In this document: positions 3,308-30,907 of the stretch, in pieces
Layout of the letters: each line of letters begins with the position of its first letter
How positions within the stretch are numbered: the first letter of the stretch is position 1
Origin: Rhodothermales bacterium
GTDB taxonomy: Bacteria > Bacteroidota > Rhodothermia > Rhodothermales > JABDKH01
Length of the DNA: 38,131 nucleotides
Assembly (NCBI GenBank): GCA_013002345.1
Contig: JABDKH010000024.1
Span: forward strand, 1-38,131
Direction of reading: 5' to 3'
Notes under the pieces: model-generated
What the model saw: the letters and a program-made list of their open reading frames with translations, nothing else
The model's database searches: none
What the model was told of the DNA's origin: nothing
Translations under genes and position numbers: made by a program

Positions 3308-3715
3308 TTACTGCGATTCGGCAGCCTGTGTGCAATACCCGCCTTGATGCGAAATGTCGGGCGGAGTGACGAACATACAGTCTGACATGGTTCCTTTCTC
3401 TCGATTGACGCGTGCCTGAACCTGATTGTACTCTTCAACGAGATCGGTCAGCTCCGCGTCGTCGGTGAATTCCGTCGAGTAGATGAGGTACGTCCAGGGA
3501 CCGCCGCAGGGTTTCGATCCGAAGGCGATCGCACGGCATGAACTCGCTTCCTGAGCTGGTGCGTCGCCTATCAACGCGAGAATTCTGGTTTCCAGTTCGT
3601 CGAGCCCGGGATCGTCGTCCGGGCCGCTGATCTGGCAGCCTCCGGCCAGGACCAGAAGCGGGACAATCATTGCCGGCGCCAGTCTGAAGATCAATCTTTT
3701 TCTGCGCACGATCAT
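3308..3715 (-). CDS. Small Cys-rich lipoprotein of unknown function
   Basis: I do not know the function. The 135-residue product starts with a positively charged stretch (IVRRKRLIFR), a hydrophobic core and a lipobox LAGGC with the lipidated cysteine at 27, so it should be a lipoprotein anchored in a membrane. After the cysteine comes an acidic linker (GPDDDP), then a compact domain with four further cysteines: SSC, GSKPCGGPW, SDCM and GYC. These could form two disulfides. The run IAFGSKPCGGPWTYLIYS recalls a small periplasmic lipoprotein family seen in Bacteroidota; that is memory, not a search. The ATG at 3715 was chosen over a GTG at 3769 because the extra 18 residues would sit in front of the signal peptide. 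It follows the DUF1501 gene by about 140 bases on the same strand and converges with the acyl-CoA dehydrogenase. Confidence 0.7.
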   Translation of the reverse strand: MIVRRKRLIFRLAPAMIVPLLVLAGGCQISGPDDDPGLDELETRILALIGDAPAQEASSCRAIAFGSKPCGGPWTYLIYSTEFTDDAELTDLVEEYNQVQARVNREKGTMSDCMFVTPPDISHQGGYCTQAAESQ

Positions 3716-3856
3716 GGTTCTTCGAACGCTTGCCTCACATTCACATTCAGGAGAGATAATGCGTCGCACGCGTCAGGGTTTCCGGTACCCTGGGAAGTGC
3801 CCTTTGCCACATCGTACGTCCCGGCCGTGAACACGACTTCCACGTCGCGATTATCC

Positions 3857-5485
3857 CTATTTGACGACAGCCATCTTGCCCGCCACGCTACCGTGGTCGG
3901 TGGTCAGGCGGTACACGTAGGTGCCGCTGGGGAGCCTTCCGGCATCGAACGGCATACTGTACGATCCGGCAGTCTGCTGCCGATCAACCACGCGTTGAAT
4001 CATCCGCCCCTGTACGTCAAAGATCGACAGGTCGACATGCGAGGGTCGCGCGAGTGTGTACGAGAGGGTGGTCGTGGCGCTGAATGGATTGGGATAGGCC
4101 GGTCGCAACGCAAATGCTTCCGGGACCGCCTCAGGCACAGTGCTCGTCGGCACGGCCGGGTCTGCGACAAAATCAAGCCGATCAAACGAGCCGCCAAGTA
4201 CCTGTTCAGTGGCCGTTTCCGGCAGGCCGAACCAGTCTGTGAGGACGGTTGAGTAGATGCTTCGGAAGTCCTCCTCGAATTTCATGTTGCCGGTCAGATC
4301 AAGGTCCGTCAGGTCGGGCTGAGCGCCCAGCAGTCCTCCCGATACGCCACCCCCGAGAACAAACAGAGGTGCCGCCGTTCCATGATCAGTTCCGCCTGAT
4401 CCGTTCTGGTTCACTCTGCGTCCGAACTCCGAGAACGTCATGGCCATCACGCGCTCATTCATGCCCGCGATTTCGAGATCCGCGTAGAAGGCAGTAAGGG
4501 CCTCCGAGATGTAGCGCAACAGAGTGGCATGTGGTCCAGGCTGACCGGCATGCGTGTCGAAGCTGCCAAGCGACGCCACGTAGATGCGCGAACCCAGATT
4601 CCCCTTGATAAGCTGTGCGATGACCGCGAGGCTGTCCGCCAGCGGATTCGGAGACGGGTATTCGTATGGCGCTCCGCTGTTGCTCGCTGCGTCCTGAACC
4701 GCAGATGCGTAAAGGAACGAGTCGTTGGCGACGGAACGCACAAACTCCATCTCATTTCCGTACGCGGTATTCGGCAGATTCGTGACGTCGTACACCAGAC
4801 CTGTCTCCGCAATCTGCGAGAACAACTGGACACTGGCCAGACTCATACCCATGTTGGCGGAAGGCCCCTGGAAGATCATGCTTGACAGTCCGCCCACCTG
4901 CACGGCGAGTGGATACTCGGGAGGCTGCTCGCCAAAGTCAGGGAAATCCGCATCGAGGTAACGACCCATCCAACCGGTATTCTGCACAACATCCGAGTCG
5001 CTGGCCGATACCCAGATGTCCGTCGACCTGAAATGAGAAAGATTGGGTTCGGGATAGCCTACACCCTGCACGACGGCGAGGCGACCCTCGTCCATGTGCG
5101 ACTTGAGCCCGCTCAGTGATGGATGGAGTCCGACTTCCGGAGAGAGTAGCGTCGCCTGCGATTTCGCGATCGCGATACCAGGTCGATTCGCGTAGTAGAT
5201 ATCATTCTCGACCGGAATGACCGTATTCAACCCGTCATTGCCGCCGTTCAACTGGATCAGAACCAGGATGCGATCGGTCTCGACGGCCCCGAGCGCCCGA
5301 AGCAGGGGGCTCTTCCCGTACGTTGAAATTGGAAGGCCGCCCATGGCCACTGTGCCCCCGACCGTCATGCCCATCGTCGAGAGGAACGATCGACGCGACC
5401 ATGTGCTGTGGTCGCCTGCATGCGCATCACCATGCGAAAGGCAGCTTCCCTCACGTCCAGTCTGTTTGTTCGTTGCTTCACTCAT
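3857..5485 (-). CDS. DUF1501 protein with Tat-like signal and T9SS-type sorting domain (copy 1)
   Basis: This is a secreted protein of the DUF1501 family, whose fold is usually placed near the alkaline phosphatase/sulfatase group; the substrate is unknown. Order of parts in 542 residues: a Cys/His-rich prefix (CLSHGDAHAGDH, 15-26), a twin-arginine signal (WSRRSFLSTMG, 29-39), the DUF1501 body with IQLNGGNDGLNTVIPVEN, SFDTHAGQPG and MTFSEFGRRVNQNGSGGTDHG, and from about residue 458 a sorting domain with AYPNPFSATTTLSY, DVQGRMIQ and LPSGTYVYRL. The His/Asp-rich blocks look like metal ligands, as expected for that superfamily. The gene starts 23 bases after the DUF1800 gene and is surely co-transcribed with it. 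Copy 2 at 9359-10999 has the same architecture but is clearly diverged, so this is an old duplication. Confidence 0.92.
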   Translation of the reverse strand: MSEATNKQTGREGSCLSHGDAHAGDHSTWSRRSFLSTMGMTVGGTVAMGGLPISTYGKSPLLRALGAVETDRILVLIQLNGGNDGLNTVIPVENDIYYANRPGIAIAKSQATLLSPEVGLHPSLSGLKSHMDEGRLAVVQGVGYPEPNLSHFRSTDIWVSASDSDVVQNTGWMGRYLDADFPDFGEQPPEYPLAVQVGGLSSMIFQGPSANMGMSLASVQLFSQIAETGLVYDVTNLPNTAYGNEMEFVRSVANDSFLYASAVQDAASNSGAPYEYPSPNPLADSLAVIAQLIKGNLGSRIYVASLGSFDTHAGQPGPHATLLRYISEALTAFYADLEIAGMNERVMAMTFSEFGRRVNQNGSGGTDHGTAAPLFVLGGGVSGGLLGAQPDLTDLDLTGNMKFEEDFRSIYSTVLTDWFGLPETATEQVLGGSFDRLDFVADPAVPTSTVPEAVPEAFALRPAYPNPFSATTTLSYTLARPSHVDLSIFDVQGRMIQRVVDRQQTAGSYSMPFDAGRLPSGTYVYRLTTDHGSVAGKMAVVK

Positions 5486-5508
5486 GACCCGATCTCCAAA
5501 CCATACAT

Positions 5509-7116
5509 CTAGATGAGCTGATAGTCAGGTAGCTGGAAAAGGAATCTGAGGTATAGATAGATCTTGATGTTGGCGCCTGCCTCGTACAGATTCCAGTCGT
5601 GCCAGGGGAGGCCTCCGAGGAATACCTTTGCAAGATCAAGTACATACGGGGGACCGTTCAGGAATTCATCCGGGATGGGATAGGTGACGAGGTCGCCGGC
5701 GAAGTCGCCGTCTATTAGTGGGAAGTCCAGCTCGTCGATTGGCACGGCCAGCACGTGGCGTGCGAGTGCGACGGGCAGGCGGAACGCAGCGTGGGGATCG
5801 CCTGGATCCACAAGAAGTGATGCAAGCGGAATCATGTCCATCAGATCGGTCCCCGTGCCGTTGGTCAGCAGGAAGTCTGGCGTGAGCCAACGGATCGGCA
5901 GTGTCGTGGTCGAAACCCACGCGTGATGTCCAGGCCACCCCGCCACATTGGGTGGATTCAAAACCACTTGCTCCAGGAAGAAGGAGAGTCGGCCCGCGAT
6001 GGAGAACACACCCGATGGGAGGGGGGCATGGGATTCGATCAGCATTCCCGTGACGAGCTCCGCCGGGCTTTTGATTTTAGCACCTGCTACGGCGTTATCG
6101 AAGAAGTGTGCGCTCTGTAGCAGCGTCTCCACGACGGGCTTCAGTTCGAAATCACTCTGAACAAGAATCTCAGCGAGTCCGGCAACGATCACCGGGTCGG
6201 GAACGGCATAAACGAACTCAGAATAGAGTTTGGCGCATATGAATTCTGCGATAGCCTGAGCGCGTTCCTCGAATATGATGTCGACCACGTCTGCGTATGC
6301 CCACGATCCCGTCCGCTGCATGAACGTCTTCGGATCGCCATCGTGATAGAAGGCGAAAAACGACGACTGCAGCGAGAAGAAGTTGACCTTCCAGCCTGTC
6401 AAGGCGCGGGCAATCTCCTGGATATCAGACTCCGTGTAGTTCGGGATCCCCTGCGCGTCCACTTGCCCCATCGTAAAGAGTTCGAGCAGTTCGCGCGCGT
6501 AGTTTTCATTGGCCGTGCCGATTTCGTTTTGTGTTCCATTCAGGTACAGCAGCATAGCCGGGTCGATGCCCACTTCGTAGACGAGGTCCTTGAAGTTGCC
6601 GAGGGCATGCGTACGCAGGAGTGTCAGGTAACGGTACGCGAACGGGGCGAGGAAGTAGGCGCCCGTCGAGGTTACGAAGTGATCGTGCCAGAAGAGTGTC
6701 AGGCGCTCCCGCAAGCCGTAATAGTACATCCGCTCGAACCAGTCGTACCGGTAGTCGACCAGCCACTGATTGTTGTCGGTGATGTAGGTCTGGAACTCGG
6801 GGGTATTCGGATCGCCGTTCGGTGGAGCCATGTCTGCCCAGAACGGTGGATCAGGCAAGGCAAGTGAATAGGCGTCGTCGACGATCGCCGCTGCCGCTGC
6901 AGACGCCTGTAGTCCGACGAGTTCGGACACCCTGTCCGGTGCCGCGCCGAATCCGGTGCGTCGCAACAGGTGCGCCGCCATTCTTTCGTCAAGGACGGCG
7001 TCGCTTGGTTCGAGGCCTGCCTCGATCGACAGTGGCTGAGCGCTCATCCTGCTGTCGGCGCCAGCGAGCCGGCTCAGGAACGCTCTTCGATCCAGTTGTG
7101 GGGTCGAGTGCAACAT
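5509..7116 (-). CDS. DUF1800 family protein (copy 1)
   Basis: This is a DUF1800 protein of 535 residues; the family has no established activity and is typically encoded next to DUF1501. Marks visible here are HLLRRTGFG (49-57), a WHDHF motif (143-147), ENYARELLELFTMGQ (204-218), IQEIARALTGW, a QSAHFF helix and PPNVAGWPGHHAW near residue 390. The WHDHF and HHAW pieces suggest metal or ligand contacts but this is inference. The N-terminus has LDRRAFLSRLAG, which resembles a Tat motif without a good hydrophobic core, so localisation is unclear. The start at 7116 leaves 71 bases to the upstream WG-repeat gene, enough for an own promoter, but read-through is possible. It ends 23 bases before the DUF1501 gene. 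Confidence 0.9.
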   Translation of the reverse strand: MLHSTPQLDRRAFLSRLAGADSRMSAQPLSIEAGLEPSDAVLDERMAAHLLRRTGFGAAPDRVSELVGLQASAAAAAIVDDAYSLALPDPPFWADMAPPNGDPNTPEFQTYITDNNQWLVDYRYDWFERMYYYGLRERLTLFWHDHFVTSTGAYFLAPFAYRYLTLLRTHALGNFKDLVYEVGIDPAMLLYLNGTQNEIGTANENYARELLELFTMGQVDAQGIPNYTESDIQEIARALTGWKVNFFSLQSSFFAFYHDGDPKTFMQRTGSWAYADVVDIIFEERAQAIAEFICAKLYSEFVYAVPDPVIVAGLAEILVQSDFELKPVVETLLQSAHFFDNAVAGAKIKSPAELVTGMLIESHAPLPSGVFSIAGRLSFFLEQVVLNPPNVAGWPGHHAWVSTTTLPIRWLTPDFLLTNGTGTDLMDMIPLASLLVDPGDPHAAFRLPVALARHVLAVPIDELDFPLIDGDFAGDLVTYPIPDEFLNGPPYVLDLAKVFLGGLPWHDWNLYEAGANIKIYLYLRFLFQLPDYQLI

Positions 7117-7187
7117 GCCATAAAGAATACGGGATCACTCGGCCCCAGATGTCACAGAATTATGACGATTTCTCCTCGATCGGTAGA

Positions 7188-8252
7188 TCAGTCAGTCGGG
7201 AACCACACGTATTTGCCGTGGGCATCTACGTAGCCGAACGTGGTCCGCTCGCCGACGAGACGCACCACGCGTCCCATGCCGTTCTCGAAGTCAGAGACCT
7301 CGTCGAACTCCGTAGCGACCAACTGATTACCGTCGCGGTCGATGTAGCCCCATTTCTGATTCATCATCACGGCGGCTACCCCGTCGTTGAATGACCTTGC
7401 ATCCTCGTACGAGGGTTGGATAACCATCGTGCCTGTTGCATCTACGTAACCCCAGGAGTTTCCTCCGTCTCTTACCGGCGCGAGCTTATTTCCGAAGCTG
7501 CCCGCACTGATGTACTTCGGACTGATGACCGTCTTTTTCTGGCGGTCGATGAAGCCCCATCGATCGCTGATCTTGATCGCAGCCTTGCCTTCCGAGAATG
7601 CACGCGCCGATGCGTACTGAGCCGGTATCACCGGATTCCCGTCGCGGTCGATGAACCCGTAGCTGTCATCCGATCCCTCATACAGCGCGACCCCCTCCGA
7701 GAACGTGGTGTACTCGTGATTGTCCAGACGAGGCGTCTCGGACGTGCGCACTATCTCGCCGTCGGAGTCGATGTACTCCCAATCATATTCTGCTGTGCGA
7801 ACGAACGCCCGATCGTCAGAGAAAGGCCCCGCGTTCACGAAGGTGGGGTTGATTACGACGCTGCCGTTCTTGTCGATATAGCCCCATCGTCCATCGATTC
7901 GAACGGCCGCCACACCGTCCGAGAACGGTTCTGCGTATTCGAACCTGGGCTCGATGGCGTACTCTCCTGTGCGGTCAATGTAACCGAATCGGGATGAGGA
8001 CCGGACGGGAGCAAGTCCCTCCGAAAAGGAACCGGCTGACCGGAAGTCCGGCTCGATCACCATTCGTCCGTTGGAGTTGATGAACCCCCACTCTCCGTCG
8101 AGTAGCACGGGGTAGAACGATACCACGTCGTCGTCGGAATCGCCGATTCCGGGTATCATGTCGCATCCGTTCAATAGCGTCGCCGACGACAGGAGCACGC
8201 CCACCATCAGCAATTTCAGAATGCGATCCGGATTTCGTGTAGACATTTTCAT
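7188..8252 (-). CDS. WG-repeat lipoprotein (copy 1)
   Basis: This protein is built almost wholly of WG repeats (KWG Leptospira-type), about 30-residue beta-rich units of the form WGYIDrdGn-vI-P-y--A--FseG-AaV. I count nine units, for example DGEWGFINSNGRMVIEPDF, RWGYIDKNGSVVINPTF and KWGYIDRDGNQLVATEF; the fourth is degenerate (DWEYIDSDGEIV) and the last is a half unit ending YVWFPTD. WG repeats are thought to be binding surfaces; no ligand can be named. The 354-residue form starting at 8252 gives a signal peptide and lipobox with Cys30 (LLNGC) followed by Asp at +2 and an acidic stretch (DSDDD). The frame is open to 8405, but that would overlap the upstream WG gene and bury the signal. The gene starts 16 bases after that neighbour's stop. 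Confidence 0.88.
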   Translation of the reverse strand: MKMSTRNPDRILKLLMVGVLLSSATLLNGCDMIPGIGDSDDDVVSFYPVLLDGEWGFINSNGRMVIEPDFRSAGSFSEGLAPVRSSSRFGYIDRTGEYAIEPRFEYAEPFSDGVAAVRIDGRWGYIDKNGSVVINPTFVNAGPFSDDRAFVRTAEYDWEYIDSDGEIVRTSETPRLDNHEYTTFSEGVALYEGSDDSYGFIDRDGNPVIPAQYASARAFSEGKAAIKISDRWGFIDRQKKTVISPKYISAGSFGNKLAPVRDGGNSWGYVDATGTMVIQPSYEDARSFNDGVAAVMMNQKWGYIDRDGNQLVATEFDEVSDFENGMGRVVRLVGERTTFGYVDAHGKYVWFPTD

Positions 8253-8268
8253 CGTGGGTTGGGATCTG

Positions 8269-9339
8269 TCAATTGGTGGGATACCAGACGTATGAACCGA
8301 GTTTGTCGATGTAGCCGACATTCTCGGACTCGGAGTTGCCGGTGAACACGCGCGCAACGCCTCCTTCGAAGTCCTCGGCTCTGTAGAATTCACGGTCGAT
8401 TGCAATGGTGCCGCTCTTTTGACCGATATAGGTCCACCTGTTGTTGAATCTCACGGCCGCATAACCCTCCGAGAACGGCCGCGCTTCACGGAACTGCATG
8501 GGGATGACCGTACGGCCGGCCTTATCGATATATCCGACAAGTTCGCCTCGAACTGCCGCCAGTCCATCGGAGAACTGCGCCGCCGATTCGTACTGTGGCG
8601 AGATTGCGGGTGAACCATTGCGATCCAGATAACCCCATCCATTGGATGTCGCAAACGCGGCGAGACCTTCCGAGAAGTCGCCGGCGAATTCGATGGCGAA
8701 CGACGGATCGATCGTGACAGCACCGGTGGTATTGATATAGATCCAGCCGTCCACGCCCTCGACGGCGGCCATTCCGTCAGAGAAGGATCGCGCGTCCGCG
8801 TAGGTGGGCGGCACGACCATTGTGCCGTTTGTTGAAACGAAGCCCCACTGCCCGCTCACGCGCACCGCCGCGTAGCCCTCGGAGAACGGTTTGGCCAGAT
8901 CAAACTGAGCCGGAATGACTTCGTTACCGAAAATGTCAATGAAGCCGTACTGGGCCGCGAGGTCAGATCCGCGTACGGCGGCCAGGCCCTCCGAGAAGCG
9001 ACCGGCAATGCGATACTGGGGCGCCACGGCTACGTTGCCGCCCTCGTCGATATATCCCCAGTCGAGTCCGACCTGAACGGCAGCCCGCCCCTCTGAGAAA
9101 TCGTCTGCGCCGTCGTAGGCCGGGACAACAGCAATCCGACCCTCGCTTGACACAAAGCCCCACTGCCCGTCAATCTCGACGGGGTGCATTTTAGAGTTGA
9201 CACGGGCCTCCTCGCTGCCACCTCCGATGAAGTCGCACGAGGCGAACATGAGTGCGGGGGCGACCATCGCCCAGGCGACGAGCCGGGCCATGGGGAGCGA
9301 GATTGCAAAGATGTTTCGTGACATGGTTGTCGTGGCCAT
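8269..9339 (-). CDS. WG-repeat lipoprotein (copy 2)
   Basis: This is a tandem paralogue of the preceding WG-repeat lipoprotein and nearly the same size (356 residues). About nine WG units can be read, such as QWGFVSSEGRIAVVPAY, DWGYIDEGGNVAVAPQY, QWGFVSTNGTMVVPPTY and LVGYIDKAGRTVIPMQF, and it also ends in a half unit with YVWYPTN. The signal peptide runs to a lipobox FASC with Cys35, again followed by Asp at +2. Starts at 9339 (ATG GCC) and 9324 (ATG TCA) both work; a TTG at 9369 would overlap the DUF1501 stop. It begins about 20 bases after the DUF1501 gene, so it is part of that operon. Likely surface or periplasmic; whether it is an adaptor, a receptor or a substrate for the DUF1501/DUF1800 pair cannot be read from the sequence. 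Confidence 0.88.
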   Translation of the reverse strand: MATTTMSRNIFAISLPMARLVAWAMVAPALMFASCDFIGGGSEEARVNSKMHPVEIDGQWGFVSSEGRIAVVPAYDGADDFSEGRAAVQVGLDWGYIDEGGNVAVAPQYRIAGRFSEGLAAVRGSDLAAQYGFIDIFGNEVIPAQFDLAKPFSEGYAAVRVSGQWGFVSTNGTMVVPPTYADARSFSDGMAAVEGVDGWIYINTTGAVTIDPSFAIEFAGDFSEGLAAFATSNGWGYLDRNGSPAISPQYESAAQFSDGLAAVRGELVGYIDKAGRTVIPMQFREARPFSEGYAAVRFNNRWTYIGQKSGTIAIDREFYRAEDFEGGVARVFTGNSESENVGYIDKLGSYVWYPTN

Positions 9340-9358
9340 CGGTGGTGGTGAGGGTGGG

Positions 9359-10999
9359 TTACTTCGCAAGGATCATCTTCCGATTCAGCACGCTTGAGCC
9401 TGTCTGCAGCTGGTAGAGATACGTGCCGGAAGGAAGTGCGTCGGCATGGAAGTCGATCGCATGACTCCCGGACGCGACGGTTCGATCAATGAGCGTCGTC
9501 ACGCGACGTCCTTCGATGTCGTAGACCGTCAGCCTGACGTGAGCGCTGGCCGGCAGATCGAAACGAATCTGGGTGCTTGGATTGAACGGGTTCGGGTAGT
9601 TCTGGTGCAGCTCGAACGATCGGGGAACCACGGGGTCGTCGACTCCAACCGAGGCTCGGTTCTCCACGAAATCGAGGCGTGAAAACGTGCCGCCCAGTAC
9701 GGTGTCGACAACGTCGCCCTCCAGCCCCAGCCAGTCCTGCATGAGGGTGGAGTACACGGCCCGATAGTCGGTTGTATACCTGGGGTCGCCACCATAGAGG
9801 TCGAGGAGGTCGGACTGGGTGCCGTAGAGACCACCGGCTAGACCCGCCCCGAAGAGCATCATAGGCGCGCCGGCGCCGTGGTCCGTACCACCGGAGCCGT
9901 TCTCGCGAAGCGTGCGCCCGAACTCAGAGAACGTCATGACGACGACACGTTGGTCGAGCCCATCCTGCTCGAGGTCAGCCATGAAAGCGGCCACGGACTG
10001 AGCAATGTCACCGAGTAGTGACGCATGCCCACCCTGCGGTCCGCCCTGGTTGGAATGGGTGTCGAACCCACCCCTGGATACGGTGTAGAGATTGGTCGGA
10101 AGTCCGCCACGAAGCATCCGTGCGATGACGGCCAGCGACGAGGAGAGTCCGCTGTCCGGATAGCCGGAGAGGTTGCTGCCGGCCTGGGTAGCATTTTGCA
10201 CAGACTCGACATAGCGGAACGAAGCGTTCGTCACGCTGCGGATGTATGCAAGCTCGTCGCCGTAGAGGGTAGCCGGCACATTCTCCGTGTCGTAGAAGCC
10301 ACCTTGCTCCACAAATCTGTCGAGATCACTCGCGTCACTAAACGTAACCGCCAGGTTGCCCGAGCTACTCTGGAATAGCGTCGCCGGCCCGCCGACGCGA
10401 ACCGCCAGCGGATAGTCCAGTGGATTCGAAAAGAAGTTCGGATTCTCGTTGATCAGATAGCGTGCAAGCCAACCCGTGCTCTCGGGTGCCCCCTGATCGC
10501 GACCGGTTGACCAGTTTACCGTGCCCTCAAAGTGGCTGCGCGTTTGATTCTCGTATCCAACGTTGTGAACCACTGCCATCCGACCATCCATCCACAGATT
10601 CTCAAGCGGACTCATCGCCGGGTGCAGTCCCGTTTCGTTGTCGAGCAGGACGGCCGAGCTCTTTGGGATGGCGATCGTCGGACGGTTGTTGTAGTAGATG
10701 TCATTCTCGACGGGCACGACCATGTTGAGGCCGTCGTTGCCGCCATTCATCTGGATCAGAATCAGAATCCGATCTGATCCTGACTGCTGCAGTGCGCCGA
10801 GCAGTCGTGACTGTCCGAATGCACGGACGGTGTGGTTCCCGACGGTCAGGACGGTACCTGCAGCCGCGAGGCCCATCCGCGTCAGGAAGTCGCGCCTTGA
10901 CCAGGCCGCATGATCCTGTTCGTGCGCATGGCCGTGGTGCAGGCAGGCGCCGTGACGATGGCCGCCTTGCCGCAAAATATCTCTTTCACGTTTCGTCAT
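9359..10999 (-). CDS. DUF1501 protein with Tat-like signal and T9SS-type sorting domain (copy 2)
   Basis: This is the second DUF1501 protein, 546 residues from the ATG at 10999. A start at 11059 would overlap the DUF1800 stop at 11031. It has the same order as copy 1: Cys/His prefix (CLHHGHAHEQDH, 19-30), twin arginine (WSRRDFLTRMG, 33-43), the body with LIQMNGGNDGLNMVVPVEN, GGFDTHSNQGGP and MTFSEFGRTLRENGSGGTDHG, then a textbook sorting domain with NYPNPFNPSTQIRFDL, VYDIEGRRV and LPSGTYLYQL. The end motif LNRKMILAK matches the conserved terminal lysine-rich strand of such domains. Export first by Tat and then across the outer membrane is the simplest reading. The two DUF1501 copies are most alike at the nucleophile-like region LNGGNDGLN and the SEFGR-GSGGTDHG block. 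Confidence 0.92.
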   Translation of the reverse strand: MTKRERDILRQGGHRHGACLHHGHAHEQDHAAWSRRDFLTRMGLAAAGTVLTVGNHTVRAFGQSRLLGALQQSGSDRILILIQMNGGNDGLNMVVPVENDIYYNNRPTIAIPKSSAVLLDNETGLHPAMSPLENLWMDGRMAVVHNVGYENQTRSHFEGTVNWSTGRDQGAPESTGWLARYLINENPNFFSNPLDYPLAVRVGGPATLFQSSSGNLAVTFSDASDLDRFVEQGGFYDTENVPATLYGDELAYIRSVTNASFRYVESVQNATQAGSNLSGYPDSGLSSSLAVIARMLRGGLPTNLYTVSRGGFDTHSNQGGPQGGHASLLGDIAQSVAAFMADLEQDGLDQRVVVMTFSEFGRTLRENGSGGTDHGAGAPMMLFGAGLAGGLYGTQSDLLDLYGGDPRYTTDYRAVYSTLMQDWLGLEGDVVDTVLGGTFSRLDFVENRASVGVDDPVVPRSFELHQNYPNPFNPSTQIRFDLPASAHVRLTVYDIEGRRVTTLIDRTVASGSHAIDFHADALPSGTYLYQLQTGSSVLNRKMILAK

Positions 11000-11030
11000 G
11001 TTGAAAGTGTCTGAATGACTCCGGTCAGGA

Positions 11031-12659
11031 CTAGGTGAGCTGATAGGCAGGCAATGCAATCAGATAACCGAGATAGGCACGAAGCAGGCTGCGTGCTTCC
11101 TCGACCCGTGGGTTGCTATCGTCGATGATGATCGGCCACTCGTGATACGGCGTGCTGTCCAACAGCAGCTTGACGAGGTTTTGCTCGTGCGCGGGTGCGT
11201 TCACCACGTAGCCCGGCAGCAGCGAAGGGTCGCCTGCAAACGGCTCCGAAACCTCGCGAATTCCCGTTTCCGACAATGGAAGCGGGATCAGAACTGTCGC
11301 GAGATCGATGGCGATCCGGTACGGGTCAGAGGGGTCGGAAACCTTGGAAACGAGCTCGAATGGATCATAGCTTGCACCATTCCGCTGGTACAGGACGTCG
11401 CTGGCGACGGTCCAGCGGTCCGGCAGGGTGCTGGTCGTCAGCCAGGTGTGATGTCCGGGGTTGCCGCTTGCATCCGGCGGGTTCAGTCCGGGCCAGCCCG
11501 CCACGTTCGGCGGATTGAGAAGCTCCTGTCCGAGGTTGATCGCGCTAAGCACTTCTCGCAGTTCCTCCCATAGCGCCTGGGTCGGCACCACTTCCACTTC
11601 GCGAAGAAATCCGAGGACAAATTCAACCGGACTCTTAATCCGAGCTCCGATAACCGTCGCACGATAAAAGTGCTCGCTCTTCAACACCTTGCGCAATACG
11701 GGCGCGACTTCGAAGTCCGCTGCAATGAGCTCGGACGCGATATCGGCCACAACGGTGTCGTCGGGAATCGCGTGTACAAAGAACGTGTACAGTTTTCTCG
11801 CGATGTAGTGGGCGATGGCGGGCGTCCGCTCCTCGAATATGATGTCGATGACGTCGTCGTACTTGAACGCTCCGGTGCGGCCGAAAAATGTCTTGGCCCC
11901 GCCGTCGTGCAATGACGGGTCGAACGAGGTCGTCCGGTTCTGTGTCACCGCCCATCCGGTAAGCGCACGGGCGATCTCCTTGATGTCTTCCTCGGAATAG
12001 TTCAGTTCGCCTGACGGTCCATACTGGCTCATCGTGAAGAGCTCGAGCAGCTCGCGCGCAAAGTTTTCGTTGGCCTGTCCGACCCTGTTGAGATAGCCAT
12101 CCAGGTACAGATGCATCGATGCGTTGAGGCCGGTCCGCCGAACCAGTTCACGGTAGTTACCGACTGCGTTCTGGCGAAGCAGCTTGTAGTAGTCGTACAT
12201 AATGTGTCCGACCGACAGCGACGTCTTGTTCTGATTGATACTCCATTGTGTCGGCAGATGGTTGTGCCAGAGCAAAGTCATCTTTTCGATGAGGCCGATG
12301 GTCCGCATGTCGTTGAACCACGACTTCTGCAGATCATAGATCTCATTGACGCCGGTGTTGGAGCCCGATGCGTACCACGACGGAGCTTCGGGCAGGGGAG
12401 ATGCGATTGCTTCGTTGACGAGTCGATCGACAGCGGCGCCAACGCTGCCGTCGTTGAGCGCGCGGTCGACGTCACGCTTCAGTGCGCCGAATCCTGTGCG
12501 TGCGACGAGGTGTCGTGCCTGCACCCTGGTCCACGATCCCGAATAAGGGGCGAGCGATAGGGAGCCGGATGAGGCTGTGGTGGCCGTACCGGTCGGAGCG
12601 TACGTCGTTTTTCTCGACATATGAGCGATTCGATCGACTTGATGGTGTGCCCCCGACAT
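11031..12659 (-). CDS. DUF1800 family protein (copy 2)
   Basis: This is the second DUF1800 protein and the first gene of the four-gene run DUF1800-DUF1501-WG-WG. In the 542-residue form, visible marks are HLVARTGFGAL (50-60), WHNHL (131-135), ENFARELLELFTMSQ (198-212), IKEIARALTGWAV, LKSEHFYRA and PPNVAGWPG followed by GHHTWLTTSTL. Relative to copy 1 it has an insertion between AGWPG and GHHTW and a longer Ser/Thr/Ala-rich N-terminus without a clear signal peptide. Starts at 12659 (ATG, directly after a GTG) and 12620 (ATG TCG AGA) are both possible. The function of the family is unknown; the fixed pairing with DUF1501 suggests that the two act together. Confidence 0.9.
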   Translation of the reverse strand: MSGAHHQVDRIAHMSRKTTYAPTGTATTASSGSLSLAPYSGSWTRVQARHLVARTGFGALKRDVDRALNDGSVGAAVDRLVNEAIASPLPEAPSWYASGSNTGVNEIYDLQKSWFNDMRTIGLIEKMTLLWHNHLPTQWSINQNKTSLSVGHIMYDYYKLLRQNAVGNYRELVRRTGLNASMHLYLDGYLNRVGQANENFARELLELFTMSQYGPSGELNYSEEDIKEIARALTGWAVTQNRTTSFDPSLHDGGAKTFFGRTGAFKYDDVIDIIFEERTPAIAHYIARKLYTFFVHAIPDDTVVADIASELIAADFEVAPVLRKVLKSEHFYRATVIGARIKSPVEFVLGFLREVEVVPTQALWEELREVLSAINLGQELLNPPNVAGWPGLNPPDASGNPGHHTWLTTSTLPDRWTVASDVLYQRNGASYDPFELVSKVSDPSDPYRIAIDLATVLIPLPLSETGIREVSEPFAGDPSLLPGYVVNAPAHEQNLVKLLLDSTPYHEWPIIIDDSNPRVEEARSLLRAYLGYLIALPAYQLT

Positions 12660-29104: not shown

Positions 29105-30907
29105 TCAGCGGGTCACGATAAATTTCGCCGCTCGGGTCTTGCCGTCGAGATGGAATACGGCGAAATAAATCCCGGCCGCGAAGCTCTGCGGGTTCCACAC
29201 AGCGGTGTGTCGGTGGCGCGCCGAAGCGTGCACGGCGGGGCGGGCGACCACCCGGCCCATCAGATCAAGGATTGATGCGTTGACGTTGCGGGAATTCGAA
29301 TCGAAAGTCGTCAGTCGAATGTCGCCGCTGCCCGGGTTCGGATAGATCTCGATGGAAGGACGTTCGTCCGGCCCCGGATCAGACTCCGTTCCGACGGGCA
29401 GAAGGGTCGTATCGTACAGGATCAGGAGATCGTCGAGCTCGTCGACGGCCGTCATGTCCAGCGTCCCGTTGTTGTCGCGGTCGTGGAGGATCGCGCATGA
29501 TCCCGCCTGCGAAGCCGGATAGTCTCGGTGACGATTGAACAGCCCACCGCCGCGATTTTCGAAGACCGTGAAGCTGGCGGACGAGTAGTTGCTCGTGACC
29601 AGGTCCAGGTCACCGTCGCCGTCAATGTCGCCAAGATCGATAGCCAGCGGAAAGATGCCCGTTACGAGGGTCCGCGGTGTCTGCAGTTGACCGCGCTGGT
29701 CACTCCGAATCACTGAAGCCGTATTGTCGGTGGAGCCGGCCGACGCCACGTCGGCATATCCGTCGCCGTCGACATCACCGGCCGCGAGCATCCACGGCCG
29801 TCCAGGGACGGGTACCGTCGAGGACAGGAACAGACTGCCTCGGCCGTCGCCGAGAAGAAGCGATACTTCACTGGAGAAGTACGAGCCTACAAATAGATCC
29901 GCGCGACCGTCTCCATTCGCATCGGCGACCGCGCACGAAGTTTCCCCCGCGCCGCCACCATCAATCGGTATGGGACTGCGAAAGGTGCCTGCGCCATCAT
30001 TGATGAGCAGGTACAGTGAACTCCGGGATCTGCTCGCTGTGATGATATCGTCATCCCCGTCTGAGTCGATGTCCAGAACGCACACTGCTCTTGAGTCACC
30101 TGACGCAGGGATGGCCGGCATCACATTCAACCGTCCGTCTATCGTGCCGAGCAGTAGGTTGACGTTGTCACTTGCGTTGTTGCCGACGGCCAGGTCGATA
30201 TGTCCATCTCCGTTGAAATCTGCACCTTCGTTTGCGCTGGGAATGGAGCTTCCGGGCAGGGGGTAGATCTGGAAGGAATCGAACGTGCCGCTTTGATTCA
30301 GGAAGACGCGGACGTCCGCGGCGATCTCGTTTGGGATAGCCAGGTCACTCCAGCCATCGCCGTTCAGGTCGCCCGCATACGCGCCGTAGCTCTGAATCCG
30401 GTTCTCACCGGGAAGCCGGATTGGCACCCGGTCGGTCTCCGTCATTGTTAGATCAGCCGGCAGGCTTCGAACCCAGAAGCTCCAGTAGTGCCCTCCGGAA
30501 AACGGCGTCCCATCTTCAAAGGTCACGGAATCCGATACACTTACGGAGACCTGCTCACCTGCAAAGAACGGTCGGTTCGGGCTGAGGCGCACCAGGCGGT
30601 TCCCGTTCTCGAATCTAAAGTCGCCTGAAGCGGGACCGGACCACCTTCCGTACACGCGAAATGTGGTCGAGTCTATGGACGATGGCCGCACCGCGCTCGA
30701 GAAAGTCAGGGCGATATCCGCGACGGTCGAGACACCGACCGTGTTACGAGGCGGAATCACCGAGTCGACGCCGTGCGTCTGTCCGAGCACCGCCGGGGTA
30801 CCGGCAACCGCGGCTGCGGCCAACAATGCGCACGCTACGGCTGTCCGTCGACTGCGCGCTCGCGTGCCATGTCGCGACAGGCTTGCGGATGGATACAACG
30901 GCTCCAC
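29105..30907 (-). CDS. Secreted FG-GAP/VCBS repeat protein with Ig-like and T9SS-type sorting domains
   Basis: This is a large cell-surface or secreted protein of unknown binding partner (600 residues). It has a signal peptide (RRTAVACALLAAAAVAGTPA, ending near VLGQ), an Ig-like Big_5 domain (about 48-150; SVIPPRNTVGVSTVADIALT and FRVYGRWSG), then seven repeats with Ca2+-binding Asp loops such as DLNGDGWSDLAI, DFNGDGHIDLAV, DANGDGRADLFV, DVDGDGYADVAS and DIDGDGDLDLVT, forming a beta-propeller, and a C-terminal sorting domain (IEIYPNPGSGDIRLTT, ILDLMGRVVA and AAGIYFAVF). Starts are poor: a GTG at 30907 is the first in frame, and a downstream TTG is possible. It lacks an adjacent partner gene. 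Confidence 0.88.
   Translation of the reverse strand: MEPLYPSASLSRHGTRARSRRTAVACALLAAAAVAGTPAVLGQTHGVDSVIPPRNTVGVSTVADIALTFSSAVRPSSIDSTTFRVYGRWSGPASGDFRFENGNRLVRLSPNRPFFAGEQVSVSVSDSVTFEDGTPFSGGHYWSFWVRSLPADLTMTETDRVPIRLPGENRIQSYGAYAGDLNGDGWSDLAIPNEIAADVRVFLNQSGTFDSFQIYPLPGSSIPSANEGADFNGDGHIDLAVGNNASDNVNLLLGTIDGRLNVMPAIPASGDSRAVCVLDIDSDGDDDIITASRSRSSLYLLINDGAGTFRSPIPIDGGGAGETSCAVADANGDGRADLFVGSYFSSEVSLLLGDGRGSLFLSSTVPVPGRPWMLAAGDVDGDGYADVASAGSTDNTASVIRSDQRGQLQTPRTLVTGIFPLAIDLGDIDGDGDLDLVTSNYSSASFTVFENRGGGLFNRHRDYPASQAGSCAILHDRDNNGTLDMTAVDELDDLLILYDTTLLPVGTESDPGPDERPSIEIYPNPGSGDIRLTTFDSNSRNVNASILDLMGRVVARPAVHASARHRHTAVWNPQSFAAGIYFAVFHLDGKTRAAKFIVTR

Follow-up and report, generated by a model that had tools for sequence, protein, structure and literature searches.

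A conserved four-gene unit of DUF1800, DUF1501, and two WG-repeat lipoproteins in a Rhodothermales bacterium and across its class, with a proposed route through Tat and T9SS

Do two DUF1800/DUF1501 gene pairs and the two WG-repeat lipoprotein genes that lie between them in a Rhodothermales bacterium form a single system? These genes are found in a window of 38,131 nucleotides, the whole stretch of DNA analysed here, which is contig 24 (JABDKH010000024.1) of a 4.1 Mb draft genome; in the genome as a whole, DUF1501 and DUF1800 each occur twice and WG genes three times. A sequence-only reading of the window had described six genes on one strand and taken them for a cell-surface system with a duplicated enzyme-like pair. 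The order it gave was borne out: DUF1800, DUF1501, WG, WG, DUF1800, and DUF1501 follow one another in transcription on the minus strand from 12659 to 3857, with Pfam matches far above cut-off (Table 1). With the likeliest start codons, the intergenic gaps are 31, 19, 16, 71, and 23 bases, four of which agree with that reading, while the second is 19 rather than 20 bases. We find that the conserved unit is the first four genes, DUF1800, DUF1501, WG-A, and WG-B, and that the remaining pair appears to have a history of its own.

Four genes form the conserved unit

We searched 245 genomes from 89 genera of the class for close relatives of WG-A (E ≤ 1e-60) and found them in 40 genomes, representing 26 genera and 11 families. 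DUF1800, DUF1501 with a sorting domain, WG-A, and WG-B keep their order and strand in all 40 loci, a count that includes the window's own genome and judges each locus as far as its contig extends. One locus (G501, L297) is frameshifted, and apart from this copy and contig ends no broken four-gene block was seen among the loci read, although WG-A identity falls to 40–49% in distant loci. In families f17, f18, f19, and f58, and in parts of f8, f11, and f12, the genes flanking the window's block are not adjacent but the block is intact; serS and rmlD flank it only in part of the order.

Among 99 whole genomes, again including our own, DUF1800 occurs in 55, and all 20 tandem WG doublets adjoin a DUF1800/DUF1501 pair (18 by coordinates and two after reading the contigs); the other WG genes listed in these genomes are single and unlinked. 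Most of 73 named loci around DUF1800 relatives have an adjacent DUF1501, and WG genes occur in only two of them, both from Rhodothermales. Chance falls far short of explaining an arrangement that recurs in all 40 genomes read, and the sequence-only reading was right to link the DUF1800/DUF1501 pair and the WG lipoproteins as a conserved multigene unit. The persistence of the block despite changed flanks argues for a joint function of the four genes, and because the tested flanking genes are absent elsewhere while the block stays intact, decay of an old gene order is a poor explanation.

The second pair is a separate lineage

In trees of DUF1800 and DUF1501, built without the f18-type loci, DUF1800 copies directly upstream of WG genes form one clade. 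Both WG genes are present in every member of this lineage with visible downstream DNA; the only members without a visible WG gene (L228, L239, L243, and L248) are all cut by contig ends. We make the claim of a single WG-linked clade for DUF1800, because the WG-linked DUF1501 copies fall into two supported but unjoined groups, with the f9/f12 group apart. The second pair of the window groups with standalone pairs, outside the WG-linked DUF1800 clade. A recent tandem or local duplication, as the term duplicated module would imply, was rejected, since the trees place the two pairs in separate old lineages.

In f1 and f6 the core is followed by a second pair of the window type, whereas f9 and f12 have a pair of a different lineage, downstream of the core in f9 and upstream of it in f12. 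The second pair is absent from f7, f8, and f18, and many genomes have no pair at all beside the core. Standalone DUF1800/DUF1501 pairs are common, and in G023 (L233) the second pair, 50% identical to P0002 and 58% to P0001, is found alone between serS and an acyl-CoA dehydrogenase gene, with no WG gene. Since G023 keeps the second pair alone, core and second pair are separable, and the second pair is, as judged from the trees, an older, separable paralogue of the core pair. The six genes are thus not supported as the unit first supposed, and a six-gene core was rejected because relatives carry the four-gene core without the second pair. Relatives do have pairs without WG genes, which the sequence-only reading had named as counting against a common system, but these belong only to other paralogue lineages.

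DUF1501 carries a Tat leader and a T9SS sorting domain

Both DUF1501 proteins of the window start with a twin-arginine leader and end in a type A sorting domain of the type IX secretion system (T9SS; TIGR04183, 42.0 and 38.1 bits in one scan and 42.2 and 45.9 bits in another, cut-off 23), two features absent from the sequence-only reading. Where the leader can be read, DUF1501 proteins of this group show an S/T-R-R-x-F-L motif (a few have RK) and a mild hydrophobic core, and the genome has TatC and SprA (1932 bits; the search for T9SS machinery covered SprA). On these rule-based grounds (motif, mild core, and TatC), DUF1501 fits a putative substrate of twin-arginine translocation (Tat), and by its sorting domain and the presence of SprA it fits a predicted T9SS type A cargo. 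Among 60 other T9SS cargoes examined in the genome, a simple rule assigned a Sec-like signal to 47 and a Tat-like leader to none. DUF1501 resembles known type A cargo in a sorting domain above the curated cut-off and in the SprA of its genome but differs in its Tat leader, as T9SS cargo has been described as dependent on Sec for entry into the periplasm (PMC5445135). Elsewhere in the contig, another T9SS sorting-domain protein is encoded at 29105–30907 on the minus strand (match 29114–29347, 37.8 bits).

The twin arginines are preceded by a His-rich extension with the approximate consensus RxG[SA]xLE[HD]GxAHxxDHxxW. This extension is present in 62 of 66 readable DUF1501 proteins with a sorting domain, the exceptions being three Ignavibacteria and one mis-parsed row, and in none of 34 other readable leaders (the Flavobacteria/Chloroflexi kind, DUF1501 without a sorting domain); five further leader-bearing DUF1501 without a visible sorting domain are cut or broken open reading frames (ORFs). 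Searching 12 genomes with the leader gave 16 significant matches, of which 15 were fetched and scanned; all 15 are DUF1501, with 14 adjoining DUF1800 and one a truncated relic, and the sixteenth (G010 contig 5) adjoins a DUF1800 match. A general Tat leader of the lineage was rejected, as the matches in these genomes fall on DUF1501 only. At L372 (G011:C1, around 3670854), an orphan DUF1501 start with an intact leader ends after approximately 248 residues and is followed by transposase-like sequence; it has no adjacent DUF1800 and looks like a relic broken by insertion.

Predicted folds of DUF1501 and DUF1800

The AlphaFold2 (AF2) model of DUF1501 (predicted local distance difference test, pLDDT, 88.5) gave 206 Foldseek matches at E ≤ 1e-3 with a top probability of 1.0, including sulfatases, YejM, and alkaline phosphatases. 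The modelled protein shares the alpha/beta fold of the alkaline phosphatase/sulfatase superfamily, and the enzyme-like character that the sequence-only reading ascribed to DUF1501 is upheld by this comparison; a PDB sequence search found no meaningful relative. Residues D15, S81, H82, D239, H241, E285, R288, N293, T298, D299, and H300 (positions of alignment A1) are invariant in 68 of 68 DUF1501 proteins from several phyla and present in both window copies. Judged by where they fall relative to the strands, these residues may correspond to the superfamily's nucleophile and metal ligands, with Asp, Ser, Asp/His, and Asp/His at plausible places. The proteins differ from the superfamily in lacking the formylglycine signature, and a formylglycine sulfatase was rejected, as positions 81–83 are an invariant S-H-F rather than C/S-X-P-X-R.

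The same order contains another DUF1501 subtype of the same Pfam family, numerous in relatives, which scores approximately 500 bits against PF07394 versus approximately 100 for the window copies, and several genomes carry this subtype without any DUF1800 match. Expansions to 13–16 DUF1501 copies per genome, many of the high-scoring subtype, occur in G012, G024, and G033 (f8).

The DUF1800 model is all-helical and very confident (pLDDT 95.4; predicted template modelling score, pTM, 0.94), and no PDB relative was found by fold (best E 0.38) or sequence. No signal-like hydrophobic stretch was detected by a simple rule in 163 of 178 copies. A related DUF1800 subfamily (L149, L154, L155, L157, and L236) and L087 have Sec-type signals; members of this subfamily therefore would work outside the cytoplasm, which favours DUF1800 as a Tat hitchhiker, although a role as a cytoplasmic chaperone is possible. 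In some copies, Rhodothermales ones among them, an RRxFL-like motif occurs without a hydrophobic core; it is found at the N termini of P0002, L211, L213, L223, L239, and L247, and by a simple rule in 22 of 178 copies, and looks like a decayed or mimicked Tat leader. At L236 (G066:C76), two Sec-signal DUF1800 copies lie near a DUF1501 without a sorting domain.

WG-A and WG-B are long-separated lipoproteins

WG-A and WG-B form two separate groups, and because each spans all families sampled, their split predates these families. Mature lengths are nearly constant (approximately 314–339 residues) and most of the proteins have a common C-terminal end (GYIDRxGxYVWYPT-like); length and shared end suggest a closed, fixed-size structure. 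A PDB sequence search found no meaningful relative of the WG proteins and no solved WG repeat structure. Almost every WG protein whose N terminus can be read has a lipobox followed by acidic residues, mostly with Asp after the Cys. In E. coli, an Asp after the lipoprotein Cys marks the protein for retention in the inner membrane. Acidic residues in this place are similar to the surface-export signals of Bacteroidota lipoproteins. The third WG gene of the genome (L148, G000:C97, approximately 4762–5304) is single and distant from any DUF1800 or DUF1501.

Proposed mechanism and alternatives

We propose, at what we judge to be even chances, that the four-gene operon makes a cell-surface hydrolase complex exported via Tat and then T9SS, together with WG lipoproteins. 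DUF1501 would belong to the alkaline phosphatase/sulfatase superfamily and hydrolyse esters with the help of metals. It would fold in the cytoplasm, probably with metals and bound DUF1800, before its dedicated His-rich leader takes it across the inner membrane by Tat. DUF1800, having no signal of its own, would most likely ride with it as a Tat hitchhiker, after which the C-terminal sorting domain would deliver DUF1501 to the surface by way of T9SS. WG-A and WG-B would be outer-membrane lipoproteins forming a fixed-size repeat scaffold that docks the enzyme or presents a polymer substrate, and the second, older pair just downstream may add an enzyme of other specificity. This proposal keeps the cell-surface setting of the sequence-only reading, for which there are signals of a surface or envelope location, and gives up its six-gene extent; the claim that each pair is exported is retained for DUF1501, with its Tat leader and sorting domain, but not for DUF1800, which usually has no signal peptide. 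Only tentatively, and with more doubt than confidence, would we go on to call it an undescribed relay, in which a folded hydrolase and a helical partner of new fold pass through Tat and then T9SS and are received by a paired WG scaffold.

Several points weigh against the proposal. Activity, hitchhiking, docking, and surface location are steps that we infer beyond the observed gene unit, sequence signals, predicted folds, and invariant residues, and for DUF1800 export is an inference at best. The signal calls were made with simple hydrophobicity and motif rules rather than SignalP. The Foldseek TM-scores of DUF1501 are low overall (approximately 0.3–0.4) despite the probability of 1.0, and its active-site assignment draws on sequence position and not on model geometry. 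The WG lipoproteins could face the periplasm. As textbook T9SS cargo uses Sec (PMC5445135), a Tat-then-T9SS route would be unusual.

Other explanations account for parts of these data. That all six genes make up a single surface system, in which two enzyme pairs differing in specificity share the two WG proteins, seems improbable: f1, f6, and f9 have a second pair directly next to the core and f12 has one just upstream of it, with at least two lineages represented, and the 71-base gap (7117–7187) permits co-transcription (a promoter and terminator scan of the locus was uninformative, with terminator-like sites at background level), but most families carry the core without a second pair, and the WG-free pair of G023 and the many standalone pairs also count against it. 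We also think it rather unlikely that the WG lipoproteins are periplasmic, with an unrelated or regulatory task, and that the operon merely co-regulates them with a DUF1501 and a DUF1800 that work outside the cell. The Asp after the Cys in most WG lipoproteins would accord with this through the E. coli rule; however, that rule is not established for this phylum, the acidic residues resemble surface-export signals, and an intact block with changed flanks argues for joint function. The absence of any functional link, the block being slowly decaying ancestral gene order, is hardly credible: serS and rmlD are also kept upstream in part of the order, but the tested flanks are gone in other families where the four genes stay, and the block holds even where WG-A has diverged most.

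An alternative that we find unlikely, though worth more attention than these, is that DUF1800 remains cytoplasmic and serves as a dedicated chaperone that binds the His-rich leader extension of DUF1501, so that of the two proteins DUF1501 alone would be exported to work with the WG lipoproteins. DUF1800 is all-helical, matches nothing in the PDB, mostly lacks a signal-like stretch, and has its gene upstream of that for a Tat protein whose leader is unusually conserved; Tat chaperones (redox enzyme maturation proteins) bind leaders (PMC3316669). However, DmsD and TorD bind the hydrophobic part of the leader rather than its N-region (PMC3316669), Flavobacteria/Chloroflexi DUF1800/DUF1501 pairs have no leader extension, and the Sec-type signals of the related subfamily and of L087 indicate that the domain can work outside the cytoplasm.

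Relation to known systems

A DUF1800-DUF1501 operon has been described near bacterial chitin synthase genes; there, DUF1501 has a Tat motif and one species carries the pair in tandem (PMC5122149). Our locus has the same two adjacent families, the Tat motif, and tandem pairs, but differs in its sorting domain, its long conserved leader, its two WG lipoproteins, and the lack of a nearby chitin synthase; Pfam found no chitin synthase domain in the six genes or the scanned neighbours (rmlD, pyrF, and others). As no SusC/SusD pair is present among the Pfam-scanned neighbours, the locus does not qualify as a polysaccharide utilisation locus. Tat complexes with a chaperone or hitchhiker (DmsD/TorD, PMC3316669; PaoABC, PMC4273604) likewise have the gene of a signal-less helical partner beside that of the Tat protein, but DUF1800 has no detectable match to solved chaperones and a surface step would follow here. 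In a literature search of incomplete coverage, which hardly covered WG repeats, we could not find a description of the four-gene system or a paper linking the DUF1800/DUF1501 pair to WG proteins or T9SS.

Features of the locus

The six genes are preceded by serS (seryl-tRNA synthetase, by sequence) and rmlD, and downstream of them lie a small ORF that resembles a lipoprotein gene and a gene for acyl-CoA dehydrogenase. The small ORF (3308–3769, minus strand) has a lipobox-like start; it has no Pfam or NCBIfam match and no relative among the fetched loci.

Table 1. Coordinates of the six genes and their leader and sorting regions in the window
Feature	Coordinates	Strand	Evidence
DUF1800 core copy P0006, opens the four-gene unit, no visible signal peptide	11031..12659	-	PF08811 278 bits; WG-linked DUF1800 clade; AF2 pLDDT 95.4
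DUF1501 core copy P0005, Tat leader, alkaline-phosphatase-like domain (predicted), T9SS sorting domain	9359..10999	-	PF07394 104 bits; Por_Secre_tail; fold match
Core DUF1501 conserved leader (RHGACLHHGHAHEQDHAAWSRRDFL... twin-arginine)	10814..10957	-	Leader comparison
Core DUF1501 T9SS type A sorting domain	9371..9598	-	TIGR04183 42.2 bits, cut-off 23
WG-A lipoprotein P0004, 9 WG-like repeats (own profile), lipobox FASC-D	8269..9339	-	PF14903 (WG_beta_rep) 248 bits; orthologous group A
WG-B lipoprotein P0003, ~10 WG-like repeats (own profile), lipobox LNGC-D	7188..8252	-	PF14903 (WG_beta_rep) 277 bits; orthologous group B
DUF1800 second copy P0002, other paralogue lineage, N-terminal RRAFL without hydrophobic core	5509..7116	-	PF08811 295 bits; tree
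DUF1501 second copy P0001, Tat leader and T9SS sorting domain, separable from core	3857..5485	-	PF07394 86 bits; TIGR04183 42 bits; tree
Second DUF1501 conserved His-rich Tat leader	5315..5455	-	Leader comparison
Second DUF1501 T9SS type A sorting domain	3872..4099	-	TIGR04183 45.9 bits

Significance

No function has been assigned to DUF1800 and DUF1501, although these adjacent families are widespread, and an intact unit found across the class offers a test bed for both and for WG repeats. The proposal makes a specific Tat-to-T9SS route and a leader motif open to experimental tests. If it is correct, DUF1800, DUF1501, and WG repeats would for the first time have a function, one in which all three take part, and there would be a relay from Tat to T9SS.

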